The translations under genes and the position numbers were made by a program. From positions 1 through 14,722 of the forward strand of contig JAHJNP010000219.1 in NCBI GenBank assembly GCA_018820745.1: a stretch of DNA of 14,722 bases. The letters are read 5' to 3'. The notes under the pieces were generated by a model. That model did not search any database. It worked only from the letters and a program-made list of their open reading frames with translations, and was not told the origin of the DNA. This DNA comes from Gammaproteobacteria bacterium (GTDB lineage Bacteria; Pseudomonadota; Gammaproteobacteria; Burkholderiales; Thiobacillaceae). This document shows positions 1-11,621 of the stretch, in pieces (position 1 is the stretch's first letter; each line of letters opens with the position of its first letter).

Positions 1-724
1 CCGCCTGTTCCTGCAGGGCGGTGAGGACAGCGAGCGCATCCGCGACCGCCTGGTTGGCTGCGTCGGCAAGTGCCTGGGCGTCGGCCGCTGCCAAGGTGTC
101 GGCAGCGGCGATGACCTGCAGACCACTTGCCGTGGTGGCTGCGGCGGTAGCCGCCGCGGCGGAAGCGGTGGCTGTCGCAATGGCTGCGTCTTCTGCAGCC
201 TGAGCCGCGGCAGCCGCCGCCGGTGCATCAACGGCGGCTTGCTGCGCCTGGGCAATGAGGTTGGCATCGCCGTAGGGATCGGCAGAGCCAGCCACGATCA
301 GCGCCGTGATGATGGCAGCGGGGTTGTTGGGGGTTTGGTCGACGATCAGGTTGCTGATGGTGCGCGGCTGCGAATCGAAGACGTTACCCGCGTTTTGTGA
401 GTAGGAAGTTTGCGTCGTGCCGGCAGGCGATCCGGGACCGAAAAATCCGGCAGGCTGAAATTCAGCCGGCCGGTAAAGCGGCTGCAGCAATCGCGGCATC
501 ACCTGGTCGGCCGCACCTGCGTCCTGCTGGCCGGGCAGCAGGTTGTTGTAGATGCCGCTGACCGTGCGCAAGCCTTCCGGGGCCAGCGAATGGCTCACCA
601 GGTCGACGAGCGCGGCCTCCGGTCCGGTGCCGTGTTGAAAGGCAGCATGGGCCTCTGCGATCTTGATCTGCGCGAGGATTTTCTTGAGGTCGTTCAAGTT
701 AACGTGAAAGTCGTAGAAAGCCAT
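1..724 (-). CDS. Animal-type heme peroxidase family protein, N-terminal part (truncated by window edge)
   Basis: The gene runs off the left edge, so only the first 241 residues are visible. The opening (MAFYDFHVNLNDL, then KIAEAHAA, GLRTVSGIYNNL and ISNLIVD) matches my recollection of the N-terminus of large bacterial peroxidases of the animal heme peroxidase superfamily. Members often carry C-terminal hemolysin-type calcium-binding repeats and are secreted without an N-terminal signal peptide; none is visible here either. Residues from about 160 to 241 form an alanine-rich stretch, probably a helical linker before the catalytic domain. The catalytic heme ligands lie outside the window and cannot be checked. 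ATG at 724 is preceded by AGGAG at good spacing. The gene lies downstream of the oxidase-SCO operon but has its own copy of the repeated promoter module (848-940), with a leader of roughly 120 nt. Family recognition is from memory, not a search. Confidence 0.72.
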   Translation of the reverse strand, partial: MAFYDFHVNLNDLKKILAQIKIAEAHAAFQHGTGPEAALVDLVSHSLAPEGLRTVSGIYNNLLPGQQDAGAADQVMPRLLQPLYRPAEFQPAGFFGPGSPAGTTQTSYSQNAGNVFDSQPRTISNLIVDQTPNNPAAIITALIVAGSADPYGDANLIAQAQQAAVDAPAAAAAAQAAEDAAIATATASAAAATAAATTASGLQVIAAADTLAAADAQALADAANQAVADALAVLTALQEQA

Positions 725-847: not shown

Positions 848-940
848 TCAGTCTAGGGAAACCAAAACCAATTGCGCCGGGGTAAATCCCCCACTTCGCC
901 TGGGTTTGCCCTGTATTTGAGACGGAGGGGTTCACTGTAG
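848..940 (-). promoter_or_regulatory. Repeated 93-bp promoter module, copy A (peroxidase)
   Basis: This is one of three near-colinear copies (others 3720-3812 and 5643-5736), each upstream of a minus-strand gene. Read on the minus strand, the shared blocks in order are CTACAGT, a CCCT block, ATACAGG, GAAGTGGGGG, a GACCC/TACCCC block, and CCTAGACTSA at the downstream end. The two TACAG blocks are 23-24 nt apart in all copies, and CCCT with AGGG forms a loose dyad. I infer activator sites upstream and a -10-like TAGACT at the downstream end; no good -35 is visible, which fits activator-dependent transcription. This copy is the most diverged of the three. Confidence 0.6.
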
Positions 941-1186
941 AAATCGCTTCGTACGCAGTGGCTGTCTGCAGTGGCCATTCGGTTTGCCAAGACCCCTTCC
1001 ACAGGCTATCCAGCCCGCATGCGGATCGAGTGGAATGAGGCGGCGGAAAAGTAAAACCGGGGGAGCCACACTGCGTTTTTATTGCACGACCCGAGGGGGA
1101 CGTCACGTCATGCCCGCATCGGAGATTGCGGCCAGCCTGAGAAGCGAATTTTCGAATCCGGGCTGGCCTTGCCTGTGATGCGGGTT
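941..1186. other. Intergenic region upstream of the peroxidase promoter, with an 8-bp inverted repeat
   Basis: I see no convincing gene here. GGCCAGCC at 1130-1137 is exactly complementary to GGCTGGCC at 1161-1168, and the interior carries the smaller dyad CGAATTTTCG. The structure sits about 20 nt after the SCO stop codon, so it could end or stabilise that transcript, but there is no T-run to make it a clear intrinsic terminator. Around 957-990 a weak resemblance to the regulator 3' end seen near the other two modules can be argued, mainly CAGTGGCTGT followed by TGGCC. It is too diverged to call a relic. Confidence 0.35.
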
Positions 1187-1840
1187 TCAGGCCGTCGCCG
1201 GGATATGCGCGGTGTGCACGACAGACCTGTCGACGTGGTTGATGGTCGAGACGATCAGTTCGGGACGCACCAACCCGGGAGACATGGTCCAGCGGTCGTA
1301 GGCGGCGTTGCCGATGCGGATCATGTTGGCGTGCTGGGTGCGGATGGCATCCACCGCCGGATCCAGGTCGTAGAAGCCGAGGGCGAACCGCAGCGACTCG
1401 ATGTCGGAGGGCGCGCCGGTCAGAAACGTCCATCCCGGCTTGACGCCGAACTTCTCCGCATACTGCTTCAGGACCCGCGGGGTATCGACTTCGGGAAACA
1501 GGGTGATCGAATACATGAAGACATCGCGTCCGATGCGTTCGCCCAGCATGTCCTGCACCCGGATCAGATTTCCCATCGTGGCCGGACAGGTGGCCGTGCA
1601 CTGCGCATAGGTCATGCTGATGGCGACCACCTTGTCGCGGATGAGGTCGTCGTAGAACTTCACCGCTTTCCCCTCGTGGGTGAAGACGGTGGGGTTGGGG
1701 AGGCGGCCTGTGCCGGGCGCCCGCTGCGGAACCGGCTCACGATCGAGCATCGAGCGCTGGAACGCCAGCGCCCCGAGCGCCGCCACGCCGAATCCTGCAA
1801 GCAGCGTTCTGCGGGTAAACATTTTGTCATCTGTGTCCAT
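1187..1840 (-). CDS. SCO1/SenC family copper chaperone (thioredoxin-like)
   Basis: SCO1/SenC proteins are membrane-anchored or periplasmic copper chaperones and thiol oxidoreductases that usually deliver copper to cytochrome c oxidase CuA. Here the partner may instead be the adjacent multicopper oxidase. The protein has 217 residues. A twin-arginine N-terminus (TRRTLLAGFG) is followed by a hydrophobic stretch at about 13-27. The copper-binding CxxxC is C81-TAT-C85, and the conserved distal histidine is H170 in TQHANM, so the usual Cu ligand set is complete. ATG at 1840 has AGGAG about 8 nt upstream. The gene begins 36 nt after the oxidase stop, so the two are very probably cotranscribed. Within the periplasmic part the family fit is good. 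Assignment to a cytochrome oxidase is not supported by anything in the window. Confidence 0.9.
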   Translation of the reverse strand: MDTDDKMFTRRTLLAGFGVAALGALAFQRSMLDREPVPQRAPGTGRLPNPTVFTHEGKAVKFYDDLIRDKVVAISMTYAQCTATCPATMGNLIRVQDMLGERIGRDVFMYSITLFPEVDTPRVLKQYAEKFGVKPGWTFLTGAPSDIESLRFALGFYDLDPAVDAIRTQHANMIRIGNAAYDRWTMSPGLVRPELIVSTINHVDRSVVHTAHIPATA

Positions 1841-1876
1841 TTCAGTCTCTCCTGCTGGTGCGTAATGCCGGGCCGC

Positions 1877-3652
1877 TCAGGCCGTGATGTCGAAGCGCAG
1901 CATCATCGCGTGGTCTTCGTGAACCAGGTTGTGGCAGTGCATCACATACTTGCCCTGCCAATCCCGGAAGCGTACGAATATCCGCATGGATGTGTTGGGT
2001 GGCAGGACATAAACGTCCCTGCGGCCCTGGTTCTCCGGGGGAATCGGAATTTGAACCCCCGTCTCAATATTCACCATGCTCAAGAGGCGTCCTTCCTCCA
2101 GATGGATGTGAATGGGATGGTGCCAGCCGCCGCTCGGGTTCACCAACTCCCAGATCTCGTAGCTGCCTTTCTGAACCACGACGCTGGGGTTCTCCACGTC
2201 GAACAACTGGTTATTGATCGACCACTGACCGTTCGTGCGGTCAAACGCGAAGCTACGAACCGGCGCCGACGCGAGTTCCGCGGCGCTGATCGTGGGCAAG
2301 CCGCGCAGTAAAAGCGGAACCCGGCTCACATCCGCCTCGGGCGGCTCGCGATCGACGATGATCTTGAGGAGTTGCCGGCCGGCCAGGGACACGCCATCGG
2401 GGCCGCGCGTATCGAGCTGGATCTGGCGGTCGATCAGGTAGAGTTCGGTGCCGATCGGATACACGGAGAAATCGATCACGATATCGGCGCGTTCCGCGGG
2501 GGCGATCTCGATTTTTCTGTGGTTGTGGAGCGGACGTGGCAGCAGGTTGCCGTCGGTGGCGATGCGAATGAAAGGCTGCTGGACCGACGCGGCATTAACA
2601 ATATGGAGGAAATAGAACCGCGACGGCCCGCCATTAACGACCCGCAGGCGGTATTTGCGGCGCGCCACTCGCAGCACCGGCTGGATCTTGCCGTTCACCG
2701 CCACCATGTCGCCGAGGATGCCTTCGGGGCTGAGCTGGTCGTATGACTGCATGCCGTTTACGTCGAAGCGCATGTCCTGGAGCAGGATCGGATAGTCATA
2801 GGGAGGGCTCGGCAAGCGCAGCGCGCTACGGCTGTTGTCGCGCTCATTGCCCGAGTCGAGCCAGTCGTAAATAAGATAGAACCCGATCTGTCCCTTCAGC
2901 ACGTTGGGCGCGGTGAAATCCAGATTGTGGTCATGGTAGAAGCAGGTACCGAGGGCCTCACGCGGATCGCCGATGCCGCCGAACTGCTCGATCCCGGCGT
3001 AGACATTGGGCCAGAAATGGTCCCGCCACTGGCCTGGCACAGTCAGGTTCGGCCCCGCCTTGAGTGGACTGAAGAAGTCGCCTGGAAAGCCGTCGCTCTC
3101 CGACGGATTGTGCGCGTTGTGCAGGTGGGTGCTGATTTCGGGCGAGCCGAATCCGATGTGGTCCTGCGGCAGTTCGTTGTATATACGCGCAATGACTGGA
3201 CGGCCGTAGCGCGCAAAAATGGTCGGACCCGGCGCAGTGACTTGCCCGTCGCTGCCCAGCCAGCCCCACACCGGCTGCGGCGGATAGGCTGGATTAAACA
3301 CCCAGTCGGGATTTTCCCGCGCCCTGAGCTCATAGAACACCGGATTGACATATAGCTGGCCAAAACGCGGATGGTCGTCGCGGCCGCATTCCCCTGCCGC
3401 GACGTTCGCCCATGCCAGGGGGGGCGGATCCAGCGCAGCAACCGGTTGCAACAGATTGGCTTCGGGAGGCAACTCGATCGCCCACGGTACGACGGGGGGG
3501 CTCGGTGGCAACACAACCGCTTGCGCCTCGCTCTTTCTGGGTGCCAGGATCATCGGTGCCGCGACGGTAGCAACGGAACCTTTCAGGAAAGTTCGTCTGC
3601 CGGGACAAACTGGGGCAGTGCCGGAAGTGTCTACGATGTCTTGCGTGCTCAT
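1877..3652 (-). CDS. Tat-exported multicopper oxidase (laccase/bilirubin oxidase-like)
   Basis: This 591-residue protein has a complete multicopper oxidase ligand set: HLH at 176-178, HDH at 240-242, HPIHIH at 512-517, and HCHNLVHEDHAM at 572-583. From these, H512, C573, H578 and M583 would form the type 1 site and the four HxH pairs the trinuclear site. The enzyme should couple one-electron oxidation of a substrate (phenolics, metal ions or similar) to reduction of O2 to water. The N-terminus has a Tat motif (PGRRTFLKG, R19-R20) and a hydrophobic segment, so it is exported folded with copper. I chose the ATG at 3652 because GAGGAG lies 8 nt upstream; an ATG nine codons earlier lacks such a site. 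It is first in an operon with SCO and is preceded by promoter module B. The substrate cannot be read from sequence alone. Confidence 0.93.
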   Translation of the reverse strand: MSTQDIVDTSGTAPVCPGRRTFLKGSVATVAAPMILAPRKSEAQAVVLPPSPPVVPWAIELPPEANLLQPVAALDPPPLAWANVAAGECGRDDHPRFGQLYVNPVFYELRARENPDWVFNPAYPPQPVWGWLGSDGQVTAPGPTIFARYGRPVIARIYNELPQDHIGFGSPEISTHLHNAHNPSESDGFPGDFFSPLKAGPNLTVPGQWRDHFWPNVYAGIEQFGGIGDPREALGTCFYHDHNLDFTAPNVLKGQIGFYLIYDWLDSGNERDNSRSALRLPSPPYDYPILLQDMRFDVNGMQSYDQLSPEGILGDMVAVNGKIQPVLRVARRKYRLRVVNGGPSRFYFLHIVNAASVQQPFIRIATDGNLLPRPLHNHRKIEIAPAERADIVIDFSVYPIGTELYLIDRQIQLDTRGPDGVSLAGRQLLKIIVDREPPEADVSRVPLLLRGLPTISAAELASAPVRSFAFDRTNGQWSINNQLFDVENPSVVVQKGSYEIWELVNPSGGWHHPIHIHLEEGRLLSMVNIETGVQIPIPPENQGRRDVYVLPPNTSMRIFVRFRDWQGKYVMHCHNLVHEDHAMMLRFDITA

Positions 3653-3719
3653 GGTGTTTTCTCCTCGAAGCGTCAACACGAGCCATTTTCTGCCGCGTTC
3701 ACATGGACCATTCGATGTA

Positions 3720-3812
3720 TGAGTCTAGGGGGAGCGGGACAGATATGCGCCCGGGTCTACCCCCCACTTCAGTGCCAAAAATCCTGTATATGAAGTAGGG
3801 ATATGACTGTAG
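3720..3812 (-). promoter_or_regulatory. Repeated 93-bp promoter module, copy B (multicopper oxidase-SCO)
   Basis: This is the second copy of the module, placed about 68 nt upstream of the oxidase start codon. On the minus strand it reads CTACAGT, ATCCCT, ATACAGG, CTGAAGTGGGGGG, TAGACCCGGG and finally CCTAGACTCA. It is most similar to copy C (5643-5736), with nearly rigid spacing over the full length. The similarity continues beyond the module on its upstream side into a relic of the response-regulator 3' end. Its position between the terminator at 3921-3948 and the oxidase makes it the only plausible promoter for that operon. Confidence 0.65.
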
Positions 3813-3823
3813 CCAACTGCAGG

Positions 3824-3871
3824 TCAGCGCTGGAAGCTTCCAGCCTGCAGGGCATTCACGATGGCAATGAC
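3824..3871 (-). pseudogene. Relic of a response-regulator 3' end
   Basis: On the minus strand this stretch encodes VIAIVNALQAGSFQR followed by a TGA stop. The intact response regulator at 5747-6493 ends LVAIVNSLQAKRKQH and stop. In both places the stop codon is followed within about 10-15 nt by CTACAG, the upstream edge of the promoter module. No upstream coding sequence continues here: the region runs back into the terminator at 3921-3948. The simplest reading is that a segment holding the end of the regulator plus its downstream promoter was copied to the front of the oxidase gene, or that a once-complete paralogue was deleted. The tract is short, but colinearity with the module makes chance unlikely. 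Confidence 0.6.
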
Positions 3872-3920
3872 TTGAGACGAAGGAGGAACTTGCGGGCCGG
3901 CTCTCGTTGGGTCATGTCCA

Positions 3921-3948
3921 TAAGAAAGCGGCTTCCAGAGGAAGCCGC
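3921..3948 (-). terminator. Rho-independent terminator of the PEP-CTERM genes
   Basis: A perfect 9-bp stem (GCGGCTTCC at 3928-3936 with GGAAGCCGC at 3940-3948) has a 3-nt loop and on the minus strand is followed by TTTCTTA. It lies about 25 nt beyond the stop of the PEP-CTERM gene at 3974-4687. It separates that transcript from the oxidase operon. Confidence 0.85.
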
Positions 3949-3973
3949 AATCACATTCCACCCAACCAGACGA

Positions 3974-4687
3974 TCAGGCTCGCCGTCGTGCCATGAGCCC
4001 AATCAGGCCCAGGCCAGCCAGCATCATGGCATAGGTTTCGGCTTCGGGAACCGCGCTGATCATGATGGTGGTGCCGCCGAACTTTTTCTCGATGAAGGCT
4101 GCACTGCCGGCAAGCGAGGTGCTGGCATACAGAATGTTTTCAAGGGTGAAGTTGATGTTGTCAACAATGCCATCTGCCCCACCCCAGCCAGAGCCGGGAA
4201 TGGCCACACTCGCATTGGCCGTCCAGTTGGTGGTGGTGATGACGGGGGGAGTGGAAACCACATTGAAGGGCGCATCAGGGACGATGCTGCCTGTGGCCCA
4301 GTTGTTGATGGGGTTGTCCCAGTCGAACACGCGGATCTGGCCGGTTACCCCGACATAGGCATCGCTGCCGATCTGATAGTAATCTCCTCGCTCCGTCATA
4401 CTGATGCTGGAAAACTGATAGCCGGAATTGGCGCTGATCCCGATGTTGAGCGTCGCCTTGGCTGTGACGTAGCCCTGGCCGTTGGCGGACTCGGCAAGGA
4501 AGTTGGTGGGGGTGAAAATCAGACTGTCGCCGGCTAAGGTCGGCGTGCCGTACAACCCCAGCATGTCTGTGTCGTAAGTGAAGCTGACGTTGTTGCCAAC
4601 CAGGGTCACCGAAACGGCAAACGCGCTGCCGCTCAGCAATGCGGCAGAGAGTCCCAAAACGGCAACACCGGTTTCTTTCTTGAACAT
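3974..4687 (-). CDS. PEP-CTERM sorting domain-containing protein
   Basis: This 237-residue secreted protein has an N-terminal signal peptide (hydrophobic core about residues 8-20, cleavage probably after GSAFA). The C-terminal sorting signal is VPEAETYAMMLAGLGLIG followed by the basic tail MARRRA. PEP-CTERM proteins are processed by exosortase and are usually linked to exopolysaccharide or surface structures; no exosortase is in this window. The middle is rich in Gly, Thr, Ser and Asn and lacks cysteine, with a beta-rich look, but I recognise no enzymatic domain. ATG at 4687 is chosen because GAGGAG lies 6 nt upstream; an ATG six bases earlier would abut the Shine-Dalgarno sequence. A 222-nt gap separates it from the next PEP-CTERM gene upstream. 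No promoter module is visible there, so it may be cotranscribed from module C. Confidence 0.9.
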   Translation of the reverse strand: MFKKETGVAVLGLSAALLSGSAFAVSVTLVGNNVSFTYDTDMLGLYGTPTLAGDSLIFTPTNFLAESANGQGYVTAKATLNIGISANSGYQFSSISMTERGDYYQIGSDAYVGVTGQIRVFDWDNPINNWATGSIVPDAPFNVVSTPPVITTTNWTANASVAIPGSGWGGADGIVDNINFTLENILYASTSLAGSAAFIEKKFGGTTIMISAVPEAETYAMMLAGLGLIGLMARRRA

Positions 4688-4909
4688 GCTCATCTCCTCA
4701 ATTCTTTGCTGGACGATCGGCAATCAGCCAGACCCCGCCTGGCGGCTCGGCAACCCAACTGAAGCCAGCTCACTTCTGTTCGACAAACGCCATTCCGGAG
4801 ATGAGGTCAGGCTAACAGCGTGCTGTCGGGCACGATCAGCAGGATCTGCGACCAACCCGGCAGCGAAGGATCGCCGCCCGCGCGTTCCCAACTCGCAAAA
4901 CGTTCGAGA

Positions 4910-5557
4910 TCAGATGGAGGCGACCATGGAGGCGCGCCTGCGTGCCATAAAACCGACCAGGCCCAAGCCTGCCAGTAGCATGCCGTAGGTCTCGGCTTCC
5001 GGCACCGGGGTCGCCATCACCCCTTCGAGACGCCAGTAGGTCTGGAACCCATTAAACGAACTGGCGAGATTTTCGATGGTGGCGCGATAGTCAACCACCA
5101 CGCCATAGTTCCCTCCCCCCAGATCGGAGATCGAAGTGACGGACCATGAATCCGGGAACAGATCCAGGCTTTGGCCGGCGTACTGGGCACCCAAGCTCAG
5201 CGAGCTGAAGGTCAGAACACCATTGGTGATATCCGCCTGCACTCCCGTCCCGAAGGTAAAGGGTTTGATAAATCCCGCGCCACCAAAGTCGAAGCCCATG
5301 GTAAAGGCGTTGACGCCTTGAGGGGTGCCATCGGTCGCGATTGCAGCGCAGGCCGACGTGCCACACAGCTCTGCGGTCGGGCCAAACTCGTTGACCCCAT
5401 CACCATCAGAGGGCTCGATGAAGAACGCGAAATCGCTCATCCAGCCGTCGTTATTGAAATCACCCAGTTGCCAGCTGGAGACCTGAACCGCTTGTGCACC
5501 AGAAGCCATCACAGCCAGCGTCACAGCAGCAGCCATTTTCGTCATAGGGAATTTCAT
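4910..5557 (-). CDS. PEP-CTERM sorting domain-containing protein (second, upstream copy)
   Basis: This 215-residue secreted protein has a signal peptide ending near SGAQA. Its exosortase-type C-terminus is VPEAETYGMLLAGLGLVG followed by MARRRA and a short extension (SMVASI). Its sorting tag is almost identical to that of the gene at 3974-4687, but the mature regions share little, so the pair is tag-related rather than a simple duplication. The body carries DFNNDGWMSDF and a Cys pair (ELCGTSACAA) that could form a disulfide or a small loop. No catalytic domain is recognised. ATG at 5557 has GAGGAGG at good spacing, favouring it over a start 20 codons upstream. It is the first gene after promoter module C and follows the response regulator on the same strand. 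Confidence 0.9.
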   Translation of the reverse strand: MKFPMTKMAAAVTLAVMASGAQAVQVSSWQLGDFNNDGWMSDFAFFIEPSDGDGVNEFGPTAELCGTSACAAIATDGTPQGVNAFTMGFDFGGAGFIKPFTFGTGVQADITNGVLTFSSLSLGAQYAGQSLDLFPDSWSVTSISDLGGGNYGVVVDYRATIENLASSFNGFQTYWRLEGVMATPVPEAETYGMLLAGLGLVGFMARRRASMVASI

Positions 5558-5642
5558 TTCAAACCTCCTCATACAGTTAAGCTTCGATCGAACCACACCC
5601 TTTTCTTCCTGCCACATGGTGACCCGCTCGCACCATTAGGAC

Positions 5643-5736
5643 TGAGTCTAGGCAGAGCGAAACCTGTTTGCCCCCGGGTCTAACCCCCACTTCAGCCGCG
5701 AAAACCCTGTATTTGAAAGAGGGGTATTCACTGTAG
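5643..5736 (-). promoter_or_regulatory. Repeated 94-bp promoter module, copy C (PEP-CTERM genes)
   Basis: This is the third copy of the module, starting 10 nt after the response-regulator stop codon and ending 85 nt before the PEP-CTERM start. On the minus strand it reads CTACAGTGAATACCCCT, AAATACAGGG, CTGAAGTGGGGG, TTAGACCCGGGGG and CCTAGACTCA. TACCCCT resembles the TACYNMT heptamer used by NarL-type regulators, though the regulator encoded next to it has no visible DNA-binding domain. It looks like the likely parental copy, because the intact regulator gene flanks it. Confidence 0.65.
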
Positions 5737-5746
5737 CTGCAGCAGA

Positions 5747-6493
5747 TCAGTGCTGTTTCCGCTTGGCCTGTAGTGAATTCACGATGGCGACAAGTTCGGT
5801 ATGACCGAAAGGGGTCATCGATGCGCAATAGTCCGTTCCGCACGCCCTGGCCAGGGCATCGCAGGAACGCACCACACCGTCAGTCAAGCCGATGAGGGTG
5901 GCATGTCCGCTGGCGGCCCGGAACTGCTGCACCAGTTCGCTGACCTTGTCGCCCACGATATCCAGCTCGAGTAGAACCAGGTCTGGCCTGAGCGTTGCAA
6001 TATGGCTGAGTCCCGTGTCTATGTTCTCCGCCTCGGCTACGATCATGTCCGGCCTGTGGATGTTCAAAAGCTGCTTGATCTGCTCCCTGGAATGCGAATC
6101 GCGGTCGATGATCAGGCTGACGTAGCGTGCCCGCAGCAGGGATTCGACCATGCCGACGATTTCCGCCTCGGTCGATTCGCCTTTCACCATGAAATGGTCG
6201 GCGCCGTTGCGAAACGCGGCTTCACGGTATTCGAGTATGTCGTAGCTGGTGAGGACGCAAATCACCGATTCGTCAAAAACCGATTTGATGATTCGGGTGA
6301 GGTCGAGTCCGTTCTCGCGCGGCAGCCGGATGTCCATGAAGATGAGGTCGAAGCGCCGCGATAGCGCCCGCCGCAGTGCAGTCTCGCCATCTTCTGCCTC
6401 GGCGATGTCCAGCGCGGGGAACCGCCGCTGCAGTAATTGGTGCAGCGACTGGCGGTGCGCCGCATTGTCCTCGACGATCAGTGTGCTCAACAT
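5747..6493 (-). CDS. Tandem-receiver response regulator without an output domain
   Basis: The 248-residue protein contains two receiver (REC) domains and nothing else. The first (about 1-118) is complete: acidic pocket E8-D9, phospho-acceptor D54 in FMDIRLP, T82/S83, and K104 in VKGES. The second (about 124-245) keeps the fold pattern (LIIDRD at 128-132, DLVLLELD at 171-178), but the acceptor position is Glu (E176) and the conserved Lys is missing, so it is probably not phosphorylated. No helix-turn-helix or enzymatic output follows, so it may act by protein-protein contact, as a phosphate sink, or through another regulator. ATG at 6493 follows a GTGAGG Shine-Dalgarno sequence. It is divergent from the histidine kinase at 6823 and points toward the PEP-CTERM, oxidase and peroxidase genes. 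Confidence 0.9.
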   Translation of the reverse strand: MLSTLIVEDNAAHRQSLHQLLQRRFPALDIAEAEDGETALRRALSRRFDLIFMDIRLPRENGLDLTRIIKSVFDESVICVLTSYDILEYREAAFRNGADHFMVKGESTEAEIVGMVESLLRARYVSLIIDRDSHSREQIKQLLNIHRPDMIVAEAENIDTGLSHIATLRPDLVLLELDIVGDKVSELVQQFRAASGHATLIGLTDGVVRSCDALARACGTDYCASMTPFGHTELVAIVNSLQAKRKQH

Positions 6494-6822
6494 AACGCCT
6501 CACCCCGCTTCAGTCCGGTCAAGTTCGGATAATAGGCAAGCACCCTGTACGAGGCCTATACGGCCTTTTTTGTATTTTCACGGGTCGTGATGCTGTAGCC
6601 CGGCGGCGTCATGCTGACTACTGTTAGCAGAAACCCCGTAGTAGCGCCGCATCACTTGCATGCTGTAACCCTTGCCCTGCCTCGCTTTGCTTGTTAAGCC
6701 GGATTTTGAAGGACGACCGGATTCACGTGGGAGACCAAAATCATGGGACCTACCGCCGGCTAGCACTGCGTTTCAAGTTTGGCTAGTTTGAAGAGCAGCA
6801 TTTTATGGAAGGGGTCATCCAT
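6494..6822. other. Divergent intergenic region between response regulator and histidine kinase
   Basis: I see no gene in these 329 nt. It must hold both promoters. At 6552-6571 a short GC stem (AGGCC-TATAC-GGCCT) followed by six T could act as a weak terminator or attenuator on the plus strand. At 6502-6513, 6542-6549 and near 6592-6597 the blocks ACCCCGCTTCAG, ACCCTGTA and CTGTAG occur in the same order as in the repeated promoter modules but with wider spacing. Nearer the kinase, GCCGGATTTTG and CAAAAT...CCGGC (about 6699-6765) can pair as an interrupted stem, perhaps a structured leader. I do not recognise a known riboswitch class. Confidence 0.4.
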
Positions 6823-8181
6823 ATGTTCAGACTGGTGCGTTACTTTTCAGTGGCAAGCCTGGTTGCCATCCTCGCCACCATGCTCGTGCTGGTTTGGTTC
6901 TATCGGCAGCTGGCGATCGAAGGCATTTCCCAGTTGGCCGAACGGGGCAATCTGGTTCTGGCGCGAACTGCGCTGGCGCCAATGAAGCCCATGTTGCTCG
7001 ACCATCTACGCGCCACCGATCACCTGCGTCCGGACAGCCTGGTGCGCCAGCCGCTGCCGCCCGCTCTGGCCTATGCGATCCGGAACTTGTTGGTGGACAA
7101 GGCGGTGGTCAGGGTCAAGCTTCTCAACCGCCATGGCACGGTCGTCTACTCGAACCAGCATCTCCAGGTGGGCAGCGACCAGCGGAACAACCCCGGATTC
7201 AATGCCGCTGTCCGGGGCCGTGATGCCAACGACCTGGTCTACCGCGATAGCTTCAACAAATTCGACGGCGGCACCGAGGATGACAATCTGATGCACACCT
7301 ACCTGCCGATTCGGGACGGGCCGAACGGGCCGGTGCAAGGCGTGTTCGAGATCTATACCGATGTCAATCACCTTGCCCATCAGACCGAACGCACCGAATT
7401 CATGATCATACTGGCCGCCCTGATCATTCTGTCGGCGACGTATGGTGTGGTGGTGCTGATCGCATGGCGCGCCGGCAATATCATCGACCGGCAGCAAGCC
7501 ACCATACGGGAGCGGACAAGCACTCTGGAGGTGCTGTCCGCCCATATGCTGCTAAGCGATGAGTCGCACAAGAAGAAGATCGCCTTTGATCTGCATGAAG
7601 GGCTCGCACAGACCCTGAGCGCCATCAAACTGCATATTGAAAATCTCAATACTCATGGCAAAAATGACCGGACGGATGGGCAGTCGATCGATGCAATCAT
7701 CCCCATCTTGCGGGATGCCATTCAGGACGTGCGGACGATCGCAAGCGAGTTGCGGCCATCAAGCATCGACGACTTTGGCCTGCTGCCCACCCTACAGCTT
7801 TTGTGCCGAAAGTTCGAACAGCAGCATCCGTCGGTCAAGATCGAGCAGCAAATCCCCCTGCAGGAAAAGGACATCCCTGTGCAATTGAAGATCATCCTTT
7901 ACCGCATTGTCGAGTCCGTTCTGGATGATATGACGCGGTACACCGATACGGGCCTGATCGCACTCTCCGTGTGGCGCGACGGCAATGTTCTCAATCTGAT
8001 GATCGATGACACGGCTGCCGGAGTGCTCGACAGTACTTCGATTCCGCTAGCCAACATCAACCCGCAACTGAGCAAGGGATTCGCCCGGATGGAAGAATTG
8101 GCGACATTGTCCGGTGGGACCTTCAGTGCATCGCATCATGCCGGACGCGGAGCGACGCTGCATGCTTCCTGGAATATCTGA
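6823..8181 (+). CDS. Membrane sensor histidine kinase, HisKA_3 (NarX/DegS) type, with divergent ATPase domain
   Basis: The 452-residue protein has a transmembrane helix at about 9-28, a periplasmic sensor region at about 29-192 (Cache-like in layout, with RVKLLNRHGTVVYSN and a final VFEIYTDV), and a second helix at about 193-215. A coiled linker leads to a HisKA_3 dimerisation helix with the phospho-acceptor H258 in KKIAFDLHEGLAQTL. The catalytic domain departs from the norm. The N-box (RIVESVLDDMTRYTDTG) lacks the usual Asn, the DxGxG box reads DDTAAG, and the later glycine box is reduced to KGFARMEEL. It may be a weak kinase, a phosphatase or a pseudokinase. ATG at 6823 is preceded by GGAAGGGG at 8 nt spacing; an in-frame ATG at 6805 is possible but has a poorer ribosome-binding site. 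The partner is presumably the divergent regulator at 5747-6493. Confidence 0.85.
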   Translation: MFRLVRYFSVASLVAILATMLVLVWFYRQLAIEGISQLAERGNLVLARTALAPMKPMLLDHLRATDHLRPDSLVRQPLPPALAYAIRNLLVDKAVVRVKLLNRHGTVVYSNQHLQVGSDQRNNPGFNAAVRGRDANDLVYRDSFNKFDGGTEDDNLMHTYLPIRDGPNGPVQGVFEIYTDVNHLAHQTERTEFMIILAALIILSATYGVVVLIAWRAGNIIDRQQATIRERTSTLEVLSAHMLLSDESHKKKIAFDLHEGLAQTLSAIKLHIENLNTHGKNDRTDGQSIDAIIPILRDAIQDVRTIASELRPSSIDDFGLLPTLQLLCRKFEQQHPSVKIEQQIPLQEKDIPVQLKIILYRIVESVLDDMTRYTDTGLIALSVWRDGNVLNLMIDDTAAGVLDSTSIPLANINPQLSKGFARMEELATLSGGTFSASHHAGRGATLHASWNI

Positions 8182-8528
8182 ATCCCCTGTGGCGACAGAT
8201 ACCGAATTGACTGCATGCACGCGTGCGCGCCGGTCTGGGCTGCTTGTGATGGCTGCGCTGTGCCTCGCATACATTTCAGTCCTTTTTTGTAACGGGATAT
8301 CTCGCATAGCGATCTCCAGTTCAACATGACCGGCGGAATCCGAATCAACCTGGTATGGCCATTTCAGTGGGCTGGCTTTGACTCATCGAAGGTGAAATTT
8401 TCTGGGCCAAACCTGGGCCAAATCAGTGTCGCATCTAGTTGCATGCAGCTGCGGATCGTGTATAGTAACTAACTGTTTTTATTGGTGCTTTGTGAAACCC
8501 ATCCCGACAGAATAGCCAGGAAATCCTG
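8182..8528. other. Non-coding stretch between the kinase and the tRNA-derived repeat
   Basis: No supported gene lies here. Two adjacent copies of CTGGGCCAAA (8401-8420) lie about 110 nt before the tRNA-Asn remnant. Short direct repeats beside attachment sites are sometimes recombinase or excisionase binding sites, but no recombinase gene is nearby, so this is only a possibility. I did not find a clear terminator for the kinase gene; the T6 run in CCTTTTTTG at about 8281 has no convincing stem before it. Confidence 0.3.
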
Positions 8529-8613
8529 CTGTTAATCCGCAGGTCCCTGGTTCGAGCCCAGGTCGGGGAGCCAAATACCAAGAGCCCTGCAGCGATGCGG
8601 GGCTTTTCAATTC
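8529..8613 (+). repeat. tRNA-Asn(GTT) 3'-half remnant plus terminator, copy 1 (attachment-site-like)
   Basis: CTGTTAA at 8529-8535 is the anticodon loop of tRNA-Asn (anticodon GTT). It is followed by TCCGC, an intact T arm (CCTGG-TTCGAGC-CCAGG), the acceptor strand TCGGGGAG and an encoded CCA ending at 8573. The 5' half is missing: the bases before the loop do not pair with TCCGC and no D arm is found upstream. A 3' tRNA half starting in the anticodon loop is the typical footprint of tyrosine-recombinase integration into a tRNA gene. A diverged second copy lies 1072 bp downstream. Confidence 0.75.
8583..8608 (+). terminator. Intrinsic terminator carried with tRNA-Asn remnant 1
   Basis: AGCCCTGC (8583-8590) pairs with GCGGGGCT (8597-8604), with one G-U pair and a 6-nt loop, followed by TTTTC. 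It has the usual position of a terminator just after a tRNA gene, and is repeated after the second remnant. Confidence 0.7.
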
Positions 8614-8795
8614 TGATCCACCGTAGCCAGGTCGCAGCCCGCCACAGCACTTCCCAAGCGGGCCGCAGACTCAGCCAGGTGATCGGATGCCAGGTGGGTG
8701 AGCATGCCGTTCCACCATTGAAGCCGTTCTCCAGCCGCATGGGCGCTGCAGTTCGTGATCCCAGTGGGTTTTAACTAAATCAAGGAGTAACGAGA

Positions 8796-9335
8796 GTGAC
8801 CAACGCACAACGCCGAGCAGCATTGCACGCCAGCCGCAAGGCTGAAGTGGATTCGTTGCGTAACGACACCACACCAGAGCCAACGCCCAGCGGCGCGTTC
8901 CGCCCGCATGAGGCTGGCGCGTATTACCTCGCCGACGTGGGCACTGTCGGCACGTTCAAGATGTTCGCCAGGGACCTCAAGCCGCCCGTTTACACCTACG
9001 GCATCACCACCATTCGTTTTGAACTGGATCCTGATACCGGCAAATGGGTCTGGTTTGATGGCGAGAGAAATCATTCCCCGCGCAAGACCCAGGATGGTTG
9101 GCGTCTTGGCAGCAGGCGCTTGCACGACACACGCGAAGGCGCAGAGGCCGAGGTTCAGCGCGAGATGGTCAAGAACGGCGACCGGGTGACCAAGGTGCAT
9201 GACCTGCCCGACGATATGGCTGCGCTGAAGAAGATCCGTAGCGCACACCATCCAGACCGCAACCCCGACTCCGACGGCGATCTCTATCAGGCGGTCGTCG
9301 AGAAGCTGGACAGGATGCGCACGGCGACCCAGTGA
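8796..9335 (+). CDS. Hypothetical protein with a C-terminal J-domain-like HPD segment
   Basis: This 179-residue soluble protein starts at GTG (8796), supported by AAGGAG 8 nt upstream. Its C-terminus (about 142-175) resembles helices II and III of a DnaJ J-domain around an HPD motif at 152-154 ([12 protein letters not shown], then [12 protein letters not shown]). Helix I is absent or unrecognisable. The HPD loop is the part of a J-domain that stimulates Hsp70 ATPase, so contact with DnaK is possible but not shown. The middle (about 45-130) is an unrecognised domain with aromatic beta-type segments ([23 protein letters not shown]), and the first 25 residues are basic. It lies between the two tRNA-Asn remnants, in the same direction as the next gene, 31 nt away. 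It is probably cargo of an integrated element. Confidence 0.75.
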
Positions 9336-9366
9336 ACCATACCGAAGTCTGACCGGGTCTAAGGCC

Positions 9367-9606
9367 TTGCAAGAAAGCCAGCCCAACAATCCACTCCACG
9401 GCGTCACGCTCGAACAGTTATTGAACGAACTGGTTGCGTTCTATGGTTGGGATGCGTTGGGGCAGAAAATTGCGATCCGCTGCTTCACCCATGACCCGAG
9501 TATTGCGTCGAGCCTCAAGTTTCTTCGGCGTACCCCGTGGGCACGGGAGCGCGTGGAATCTCTGTATATCGAAATGGCACGAAGCATCGGTACCAAGCAG
9601 CTGTAA
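9367..9606 (+). CDS. VF530/DUF2132 family protein
   Basis: This 79-residue protein matches the small VF530 (DUF2132) family closely: [44 protein letters not shown], and RERVESLYI. The family has a compact helical fold and has been suggested to bind DNA; the cellular role is not established. The start is uncertain. The reading begins at TTG (9367) with only a weak AAGG nearby, just before the conserved NNPLHG. It follows the HPD-motif gene by 31 nt. Unusually, its last codons and TAA stop lie inside the tRNA-Asn remnant at 9601, so the end of the gene may have been created or trimmed by integration. The family is usually about this length, so little if anything is missing. Confidence 0.85.
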
Positions 9607-9684
9607 TCCGCAGATCCCTGATTCGAGTCCAGGTTGGGGAGCCATATATCAAGAGCCCTGCAGCAATGCGGGGCTTTTCAATTC
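9601..9684 (+). repeat. tRNA-Asn 3'-half remnant plus terminator, copy 2 (attachment-site-like)
   Basis: This copy is colinear with 8529-8613 from the anticodon loop to the terminator. It lacks one T in the loop (CTGTAA instead of CTGTTAA) and has several transition changes, such as TTCGAGT for TTCGAGC and TTGGGGAG for TCGGGGAG. The T-arm stem now has a mismatch, so the copy cannot be a working tRNA part. It lies at the right-hand end of the segment holding the HPD-motif and VF530 genes. Confidence 0.75.
9654..9678 (+). terminator. Intrinsic terminator carried with tRNA-Asn remnant 2
   Basis: AGCCCTGC (9654-9661) and GCGGGGCT (9668-9675) form the same stem as after remnant 1, followed by TTTTC. 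It probably now ends transcription of the VF530 gene. Confidence 0.7.
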
Positions 9685-9740
9685 CAGCGAGGCAGTCGTG
9701 CTCAGTTTCTAATTGCGAAGCTGACCCCTTATATTCCTTC

Positions 9741-9790
9741 AATGCTATTGAAATAGACCTGACCCCGTGCACGCGGACCTGACCCCGTGC
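9741..9790. repeat. Left copy of 30-bp direct repeat with two GACCTGACCCCGTGCACGCG units
   Basis: The segment 9741-9770 (AATGCTATTGAAATAGACCT followed by GACCCCGTGC) recurs at 11461-11490 in the same orientation with two mismatches. Here a 20-bp unit ending TGACCCCGTGCACGCG is present twice in tandem. Just before it, TTCAATGCTATTGAA can form a small hairpin, and GCTGACCCCTTAT is a related word. From memory, TGACCCC-rich words like these occur near REP-associated tyrosine transposase loci; no such transposase is in this window. The remaining 9791-9904 shows no gene. Confidence 0.7.
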
Positions 9791-9904
9791 ACGCGCCCCA
9801 GCACGTCGGTCTAGAAAGCAGACGCTCAACGTGGTGTTGGGACCCCTGCGCGTTTTTTTGTGCAGATCGCCTCGAACAAAGGGGTAGGTTGCACTCGCGT
9901 CATA

Positions 9905-10786
9905 TCATCCTGCCTCCTTTACTAACAGGAGGATGGCAGCCGCTGTTGCATTAATTGCATATTCCGCTTTGGCTTCAGTTACGTCGCGGGAGTTCAACCC
10001 CGCTCCGTGCGACTTGCTTAATCTGTTTCGGATGGTTGCCACGAGAACGAGAGGCTGTTCGAAGAATGGCTCAAGCCCAGCGTTTGTAACGACCGTTTTT
10101 AGAAGTGGCGACGCAGTGTCCGTTGCGCTGTACGCCCATTTTTTACGCGCGCAGATAACCTTCAGTACACTTTCAAATGCGCTTCCGCACTTGGTAAGAC
10201 AATCTCCATAGTCAGACTTTCGAAAATCCTCGAGTGCTTCAAGAAATTCCCTGTTCGCAGCGCCAAATTCCGATCCACGAAGTAACTGAAGTGCTGGTTC
10301 GATGGCGCTGCTGTGAACAACTTCGGAGTCTTTCCGAATAACTTGGGGATAGGCCGTTAACGTGGTGGTCGCGTAGGGACCATCTTTACCTTCGGTCCAA
10401 ACGAACTCGGTGACTGCGTAAGGCAAGTCATCTTGTCGAAAAAACTCATTTATGTCTTCGACAAGATTGCCTCTACTAGCCGCATGGAAGTACGCTTGCG
10501 TGGGAAAGATATACTCAAGAAAGTCCAGGAAGTGCACATCATCGCAGCCACTTAAGAACGCTATGGCATCGATCATTGGGGAGTCGGTCTTGGTGTTTGA
10601 AAGACGTGATCGGCCGTGGAGATATGTCAGCTTTGAATGGATTTCGTGCCAGAAGTTGCTTCCATCGAACAGGTCTCGGCAACGCATAAAGACCCTGGTG
10701 CGAAACGACTCCGTTAGTGGCTTTGCGAGTTTTGATTGCGTAGCTGTTCTCTTTGAGAACACCTTGAATAGCGCAGAAAAAGGCAT
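9905..10786 (-). CDS. AbiJ-like abortive-infection family protein (putative)
   Basis: The 293-residue protein has the layout I associate with AbiJ-type proteins. An N-terminal domain (about 1-65) has FSKR near the start and FWHEIHSKL at about 46-54. A linker follows, then a C-terminal helical domain (about 175-290) with REFLEALEDFRKSDYGDCLTK, GSAFESVLKVICARKKW, a conserved-looking IRNRLSKSHGAG loop, and AEYAINATAAAILLLV. Similar C-terminal domains are found in phage-defence proteins annotated as abortive infection and in the STM4504/CBY_0614 group. No signal peptide or membrane segment is seen. ATG at 10786 has a weak ribosome-binding site, but the FSKR region supports it. It is 51 nt downstream of a membrane-protein gene, with lower GC than the flanks, and the pair is bracketed by direct repeats. 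Family assignment is from pattern memory. Confidence 0.6.
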   Translation of the reverse strand: MPFSALFKVFSKRTATQSKLAKPLTESFRTRVFMRCRDLFDGSNFWHEIHSKLTYLHGRSRLSNTKTDSPMIDAIAFLSGCDDVHFLDFLEYIFPTQAYFHAASRGNLVEDINEFFRQDDLPYAVTEFVWTEGKDGPYATTTLTAYPQVIRKDSEVVHSSAIEPALQLLRGSEFGAANREFLEALEDFRKSDYGDCLTKCGSAFESVLKVICARKKWAYSATDTASPLLKTVVTNAGLEPFFEQPLVLVATIRNRLSKSHGAGLNSRDVTEAKAEYAINATAAAILLLVKEAG

Positions 10787-11460: not shown

Positions 11461-11563
11461 AATGCTACTGGAATAGACCTGACCCCGTGCTGTGTGACCC
11501 CGTGCTGTGGACCTGACCCCGTGCTGTGACCCCGTGCTGTGACCCCGTGCTGTGACCCCGTGC
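11461..11563. repeat. Right copy of 30-bp direct repeat with six TGACCCCGTGC units
   Basis: The segment 11461-11490 matches 9741-9770 at 28 of 30 positions. TGACCCCGTGC then recurs at 11480, 11495, 11514, 11527, 11540 and 11553. The last four starts are exactly 13 nt apart (unit ACCCCGTGCTGTG), which looks like replication slippage. The repeats sit in the 232-nt gap before the membrane-protein gene (11390-11621), where I see no gene. They are too short and lack the spacers of a CRISPR array. Confidence 0.8.
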
Positions 11564-11621
11564 TGCGCGCCGGGGCTTCGGGCGGCGTGGATACGCGGAT
11601 AGCCAGAACTTGAGACCTCGG

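Follow-up and report, generated by a model that had tools for sequence, protein, structure and literature searches.

The locus and its three module copies

The DNA considered here, referred to as the window, comprises contig JAHJNP010000219.1 in full (14,722 nucleotides; C188 in our numbering), one of the 431 contigs of a 2.5 Mb draft genome, G000, that is 75% complete. Read in the direction of the minus strand it carries a gene for a response regulator consisting of two receiver domains and no output domain (REC-REC), two genes for PEP-CTERM proteins, a multicopper oxidase (MCO) gene followed by one for an SCO1/SenC protein, and the beginning of a gene for an animal-type heme peroxidase that is truncated by the end of the contig; a histidine kinase gene diverges from the REC-REC gene (Table 1). 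Ahead of the peroxidase gene, of the MCO-SCO pair and of the two PEP-CTERM genes is one copy each of a 93-94 bp module, also on the minus strand, and the nature of this module, a putative promoter, is the concern of what follows.

The blocks of the module are letter-identical in all three copies and the distances between them are constant to 1-2 bp. Measured start to start and in the order of copies 1, 2 and 3, CTACAGT precedes ATACAGG by 24, 23 and 24 bp, ATACAGG precedes GAAGTGGGGG by 19 bp and GAAGTGGGGG precedes ACCC by 14 bp in every copy, and CCTAGACT follows GAAGTGGGGG at 40, 41 and 41 bp. A block scan tolerant of spacing found 36 of 36 letters in each copy, while among 40 mononucleotide shuffles of the window the highest score was 24/36. 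The first-pass annotation of this DNA, which was made from the sequence alone and described three nearly rigid copies of 93-94 bp at these places, was right about the blocks. It was too generous about the remainder, with identity between the blocks of 18/49 for copies 1 and 2, 27/50 for copies 1 and 3 and 31/50 for copies 2 and 3, and with a CCCT word that is not rigid, its start following that of CTACAGT by 11, 12 and 13 bp among the three copies. The proposed CCCT...AGGG dyad is not conserved either, copy 2 carrying CAGGA in place of the AGGG arm.

Elsewhere in the recovered part of the genome the module was sought in two ways. A 21-letter core, matched with as many as 3 mismatches allowed, was found at these three sites only, with the reversed control pattern giving none. 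R1, a sequence-only model built solely from the three window copies, returned the same three and one weak match (G000:C4, E value 0.225) that was set aside. All three copies stand before gene starts, and no fourth copy was found by pattern or model search in the recovered 75% of G000.

Table 1. Module copies, their blocks and the genes and other features of the locus, in window coordinates
Feature	Position	Strand	Remark
Animal-type heme peroxidase, N-terminal part	2..724	-	truncated by contig end; predicted target of copy 1
Module copy 1	848..941	-	upstream of heme peroxidase gene
Copy 1, predicted -10 hexamer TAGACT	850..855	-	predicted from position and conservation
Copy 1, proximal GAAGTGGGGG, then ACCC	888..897	-	
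Copy 1, middle ATACAGG	910..916	-	
Copy 1, distal CTACAGT	934..940	-	
SCO1/SenC protein	1187..1840	-	family match
Multicopper oxidase	1877..3652	-	family match; predicted target of copy 2
Module copy 2	3720..3813	-	upstream of MCO-SCO
Copy 2, predicted -10 hexamer TAGACT	3722..3727	-	predicted
Copy 2, proximal GAAGTGGGGG	3761..3770	-	
Copy 2, middle ATACAGG	3783..3789	-	
Copy 2, distal CTACAGT	3806..3812	-	
Relic of REC-REC gene 3' end	3824..3873	-	ahead of copy 2; in-frame ...VIAIVNALQAGSFQR stop
Terminator-like hairpin	3928..3948	-	between PEP-CTERM genes and copy 2
PEP-CTERM protein, second gene 3' of copy 3	3974..4693	-	family match
PEP-CTERM protein, first gene 3' of copy 3	4910..5557	-	family match
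Module copy 3	5643..5736	-	10 bp 3' of REC-REC gene, upstream of two PEP-CTERM genes
Copy 3, predicted -10 hexamer TAGACT	5645..5650	-	predicted
Copy 3, proximal GAAGTGGGGG	5684..5693	-	
Copy 3, middle ATACAGG	5706..5712	-	
Copy 3, distal CTACAGT	5730..5736	-	
REC-REC response regulator, no output domain	5747..6493	-	domain scan and receiver alignment
Histidine kinase (HisKA_3)	6805..8181	+	family match; divergent from REC-REC gene

The module and its candidate regulators in other genomes

Scanning of 56 genomes of the genus, G000 included, with R1 gave matches in 7 of the 55 others (E values 6e-9 to 1e-3), and in each of the seven a module lies 12-179 bp 3' of a gene for a REC-REC protein that is 53-63% identical to that of the window. 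Downstream of the modules there are PEP-CTERM genes in G032 and G045, genes for large proteins of 1736-1860 residues, exported-looking when their N-termini are judged by eye, in G037, G032, G045, G015 and G041 (where the frame exits the contig), with a gene for an MCO of 410-435 residues next in 4 of these 5 loci, and other MCO genes in G050 and G046. On contig 18 of G015 a module stands ahead of MCO, SCO and heme peroxidase genes in that order, and a receiver gene would fall beyond the start of the contig. Two copies are present in G045, and a second one in G032, devoid of the first block, was seen with an improved model. Models were also made of 11 copies (R2) and of eight copies outside the window (R3). 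R3 retrieves the three window copies with E values of 5e-12, 3e-10 and 1.4e-9 (304,551 bases scanned), which is a reciprocal check and not an independent one, because its eight copies came by way of R1. One further R1 match, in G005 (E value 0.025), begins at model position 23; it has no CTACAGT block and no R2 or R3 match was found in L072, so it was dropped and G005 set aside from the counts of module carriers.

Alignment of 11 copies shows CTACAGT to be invariant, the middle word to be mostly ATRCAGG, the proximal block mostly GnAGTGnGGG followed by CCC, and the end of the module to be CTAnnCT in 10 of the 11, a conservation that is partly by selection because a model had served to find the copies. 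The distance from CTACAG to the -10 place is 82-85 bp in all 11 and 84 in G073, a genome of another family. From CTAnnCT to the start codon there are 76-132 bp in 12 of the 13 copies that have CTAnnCT and a measured start (the first G032 copy and those of G163 and G269 being excluded), and 46 bp in G073. If CTAnnCT is taken as the -10, the blocks would lie near -95 (CTACAGT), -71 (ATACAGG) and -55 to -37 (proximal). A proximal block that overlaps the -35 place is what is found with class II activators. At the three window copies no promoter-like site with a -35 hexamer near TTGACA was called, and such a lack is expected of an activator-dependent promoter. A sigma-54 promoter was not supported, a loose TGGC-N-GC-type pattern being present in 2 of 16 modules (G050 and G046) and in none of those in the window. 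What the first-pass annotation had envisaged, a promoter module before three transcription units forming a local regulon, with the TACAG words as likely activator sites and CCTAGACT as the core promoter (-10), gains support from this comparison with other genomes.

The G015 contig-18 promoter departs from the others in that its proximal block is missing and its spacing is 21 bp shorter, or about two helical turns, with ATACAGG sitting about where the proximal block sits in other copies. From this one case we infer that a unit may have been lost with helical phase kept. Just upstream of this short module (L068, ~180-220) is a further CTACAG ... CAAATACAG pair that the models did not report.

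Which protein might bind the module? The first-pass annotation had put forward the adjacent regulator or, alternatively, a NarL-family regulator encoded elsewhere. The adjacent one does not qualify as a direct binder: the REC-REC protein is made up of two receiver stretches only, with the receiver alignment extending to its C-terminus and no DNA-binding domain. Its receiver 1 retains the family-invariant residues, D54 included, and its receiver 2 has glutamate at the phospho-acceptor position, with E or Q in place of the phospho-acceptor D of receiver 2 occurring in 4 of 10 aligned two-receiver proteins (window 5747-6493, L065, L067 and L069). The other candidate fares better in the light of other genomes. 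A NarL-type regulator (E value <=1e-70) is encoded in 9 of the 56 genomes, namely all 8 module genomes and one of the 48 others, G039, and the genomes that carry the module are exactly the 8 of 56 that carry a REC-REC gene (Fisher p 7e-10, rising to 6e-9 if G005 is taken to be a module carrier). In a domain scan the G032 protein has a receiver domain and a GerE domain; it falls below the cut-off of every NCBIfam family among the 25 listed of 104 matched. Its G000 orthologue, G000:C87:5924-6568, is 86% identical and is encoded beside pseudopilin-like genes. The link of this regulator to the module is, on the evidence of gene content, an association by co-occurrence. An assignment to the MctS/MctR two-component system was tried and discarded, the NCBIfam equivalog cut-offs being missed by the window kinase (82 of 700 bits) and by the G032 NarL-type regulator (184 of 300 bits).

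Outside the genus, R2 was run on 399 genomes of the order. Clear matches were found in G163 and G269, both of one other genus (E values 4e-8 and 2e-7), where the module precedes a gene for a large protein of the kind described above. Upstream of the module, and separated from it by other frames, these genomes have a gene for a relative of the regulator with a single receiver. Weaker matches came from G420 (E value 2.6e-4) and G073 (5e-4). At E values <=0.05 there were 17 genomes matched as against ~20 chance matches expected among the 399, and twelve of the 17, with values of 0.0036-0.044, were treated as chance; in one of the twelve, G255, the match overlaps an open frame on the opposite strand. 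The G420 match precedes a flippase-like gene and is retained as a candidate only, no NarL-type, kinase or REC-REC gene having been seen in the 18 kb covered, apart from a 28% receiver match. That of G073 lies 2.1 kb from a gene for a NarL-type regulator 83% identical to the one discussed, and a relative of PAS-type kinases is encoded in the interval. Is the module simply tied to a family of MCO? This was rejected, since MCO relatives of other groups (L012 and L040-L045, 55-59% identical) gave no R3 match at E values <=5, and L040-L045 gave no R1 match either. A search for relatives with the 3-mismatch pattern was discarded, 5 of the 99 other genomes giving 5 matches in all as against 4 for the reversed control; one of the matches, in L010, was inspected and is inside a transporter-like frame.

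Origin of the copies and the explanations weighed

Ahead of copy 2 is a relic of the 3' end of a REC-REC gene, whose in-frame end, VIAIVNALQAGSFQR and stop, aligns with the LVAIVNSLQAKRKQH and stop of a REC-REC protein. Against the end of the G032 REC-REC gene, the best of nine gene ends, the relic has 20 identical bases, with 2000 shuffles giving no more than 13. Copies 2 and 3 share ~60 bp of upstream sequence, this gene tail included, and their upstream flanks align with a score of 23.4, narrowly above the best of 1000 shuffles (22.1). By these alignments a duplication connects copies 2 and 3, with a REC-REC gene tail retained at copy 2, and with inter-block identity of 31/50 the two are alike partly by descent. 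Copy 1 showed no relic of this sort upstream, its score being reached by 488 of 1000 shuffles. G015 has one module and then MCO, SCO and heme peroxidase genes, with no second module found between those for SCO and the peroxidase; either gain of copy 1 in the window lineage or its loss in G015 may account for this. Given the duplication behind copies 2 and 3, fixed spacing is by itself no proof of function. The argument from spacing to function is weaker than the first-pass annotation put it, and it is conservation in other genomes that provides the functional case.

The module is, to judge from these comparisons, real and conserved, and the kind of mechanism is a known one. The joint reading that we favor, with moderate confidence, is of a sigma-70 activator-dependent promoter module served by a NarL-type activator. 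Every copy would be a complete promoter of this type, in which CCTAGACT would provide the -10 hexamer, of the general form CTAnnCT, with no good -35 box and with the proximal GAAGTGGGGG-N4-ACCC block (~-55 to -37) in its stead, and with the TACAG words upstream at ~-71 (ATACAGG) and ~-95 (CTACAGT). The protein binding there would most likely be the NarL/FixJ-type response regulator, receiver plus GerE, of G000:C87:5924-6568. It would receive its signal from the HisKA_3 kinase adjoining the locus, the REC-REC protein would act as an auxiliary receiver, either phosphate sink or relay, and the output would be co-expression of the exported heme peroxidase, MCO-SCO and the PEP-CTERM proteins. Promoter positions, binding, activation and signal flow are all predicted in this account.

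Several observations tell against this joint reading. The p values for co-occurrence overstate independence because the genomes are related, and the filters of the genus search were stricter, with weak matches lost. G039, which is 79% complete, has the NarL-type gene with neither a module nor a REC-REC gene detected; the NarL-type gene adjoins the kinase gene in G032 and G046 and, in a copy 73% identical, in G015, but nowhere else; and in G037 it (G037:C91:71749-72393) has one internal TAG. G073 might lack a REC-REC gene, none being reported in the order-wide search among the six best candidates scored per genome, where G073 is not listed by name. The REC-REC paralogue on G000:C187 has no module at E values <=5, and the REC-REC gene of G094 has only a partial R2 match (E value 0.02) and no R3 match. 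As for the promoter itself, the first G032 copy has GATACT, and G163 and G269 are without CTAnnCT at the expected place. Within the module the best direct-repeat lag, 22 bp, scores 5.9, below the permutation median of 6.3, a result that is not significant for equal tandem sites; the C-rich and G-rich tracts show inverted similarity, as compared without permutations.

Could the same promoter be worked by a different DNA-binding protein, the kinase, the REC-REC protein and the NarL-type regulator being no more than companions in one gene set? We hold this to be unlikely, though it deserves to be taken seriously: binding by the NarL-type regulator is a prediction, the GC-rich proximal block is unlike the TACAG words so that two proteins may bind, and four further NarL-type relatives (E values <=1e-20) are encoded in the recovered G000 genome. 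The restriction of the NarL-type regulator to the module genomes, with a single exception, speaks for its involvement, as does its proximity to the weaker module in another family. That the three copies are left over from duplications, with little or no regulatory role, would fit the likeness of copies 2 and 3 outside the blocks and their common upstream sequence, but is quite improbable when block letters are retained at 39-42 of 43 between copies while spacers have drifted to 18-31 of ~50, and when blocks and spacing persist in species with REC-REC proteins as divergent as those given above.

The module might instead work as RNA, a structured leader or attenuator. Its C-rich and G-rich tracts are paired in a consensus fold, but none of the 17 predicted pairs is changed on both sides among the 3 sequences, there is no Rfam match in the window, and a -10-like element, nearly constant in its distance, closes the module, all of which makes such a role very improbable. 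A dispersed mobile repeat that happens to be before genes is hardly credible: there are several copies per locus in the window, G032 and G045, but only three in the recovered genome, all ahead of gene starts, and in the seven other genus genomes the copies are at this same gene set.

A more speculative extension, which we advance tentatively and regard as doubtful in its entirety, is that a HisKA_3 kinase, a REC-REC protein and a separate NarL-type activator form a three-protein set with its own portable promoter module. The module would have been copied together with the REC-REC 3' end, so placing new operons for exported oxidases and surface proteins under one control, would tolerate loss of a unit of about two helical turns, and would define a regulon for extracellular oxidation of metal, possibly manganese, or for matrix building.

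Other features of the window and comparison with known systems

Among the neighboring genes, the product of 2..724 had no family match of its own in domain and family scans; it is 80% identical over 166 residues to the L068 protein of G015, which has An_peroxidase and RTX repeats. The MCO and SCO genes, separated by a 37-bp gap, are likely to form one operon. Terminator-like sites in the region number 7, with 5.8 expected by chance. All 11 of the other receiver-gene loci compared (L037-L039, L064-L067, L069-L071 and L115) have an SLT lytic transglycosylase gene in the vicinity of the receiver gene; none was found beside the receiver gene of the window. One of these loci, L037 on G000:C187, carries at 7343-10382 a paralogous set of genes, for kinase, SLT transglycosylase and REC-REC protein, not far from type II secretion-like genes, and there CCTAGACT is present 3' of the REC-REC gene in spite of the lack of a module, perhaps as a decayed copy. 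Beyond the kinase gene, 8533-8613 and 9604-9684 of the window are an 81-nt direct repeat, 91% identical, that by eye resembles a tRNA gene's 3' end with a hairpin after it; neither ARAGORN nor Rfam gave a match for it, and the repeats may be the ends of an old integration. Adjoining them on the minus strand, 9905-10786 encodes a DUF7014 protein with a below-threshold match to the AbiJ N-terminal domain and a PADLOC AbiJ match (E value 7e-5), possibly an abortive-infection type gene. A 13-bp tandem repeat, TGACCCCGTGCTG, occupies 11514-11578.

What does the module offer? Searches among open-licence papers gave no description of it, nor any of the control of these oxidase and PEP-CTERM genes in these bacteria. 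It provides a testable cis-element, together with a named candidate regulator, for MCOs, an animal-type heme peroxidase and PEP-CTERM proteins. It is also a promoter, as we read it, that was multiplied by duplication with the relic still traceable, and it raises the question of the role of a receiver-only REC-REC protein between kinase and activator.

RpoN-dependent control of PEP-CTERM genes goes by the name of PrsK-PrsR. Such control is reported in PMC9850573 and also PMC9012009. There as here PEP-CTERM genes are regulated; the window module has CTAnnCT at the -10 place instead. Also similar, by description and without sequence comparison, is EmbRS of Rubrivivax gelatinosus (PMC3684757), likewise a LuxR-type response regulator and a kinase, connected with a gene set for the biofilm matrix in which PEP-CTERM genes are included. 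EmbR, unlike the REC-REC protein of the window, is itself the helix-turn-helix regulator and adjoins its kinase; the available text of that paper gives no account of a promoter element and lacks the word 'promoter'. On the enzyme side, the manganese-oxidizing heme peroxidase MopA and manganese-oxidizing MCOs (for example PMC6247904) belong to the same two enzyme classes as are seen here. In the window these are an animal-type heme peroxidase, whose G015 relative has RTX repeats, and MCOs, and manganese as the substrate is a guess from the enzyme classes.

A parallel in design is offered by sigma-70 promoters under NarL/FixJ-family (REC + GerE) regulators, such as CrbR with its ACTU element (PMC5715377). 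There too a LuxR/NarL-type two-component regulator is concerned with a conserved element upstream of RpoD-type promoters, and the regulon was recognized by an element common to the promoters and by its co-occurrence with the regulator. ACTU is a single imperfect inverted repeat at acetate genes, whereas the module of the window has three blocks spread over ~90 bp and is found at oxidase and PEP-CTERM genes.

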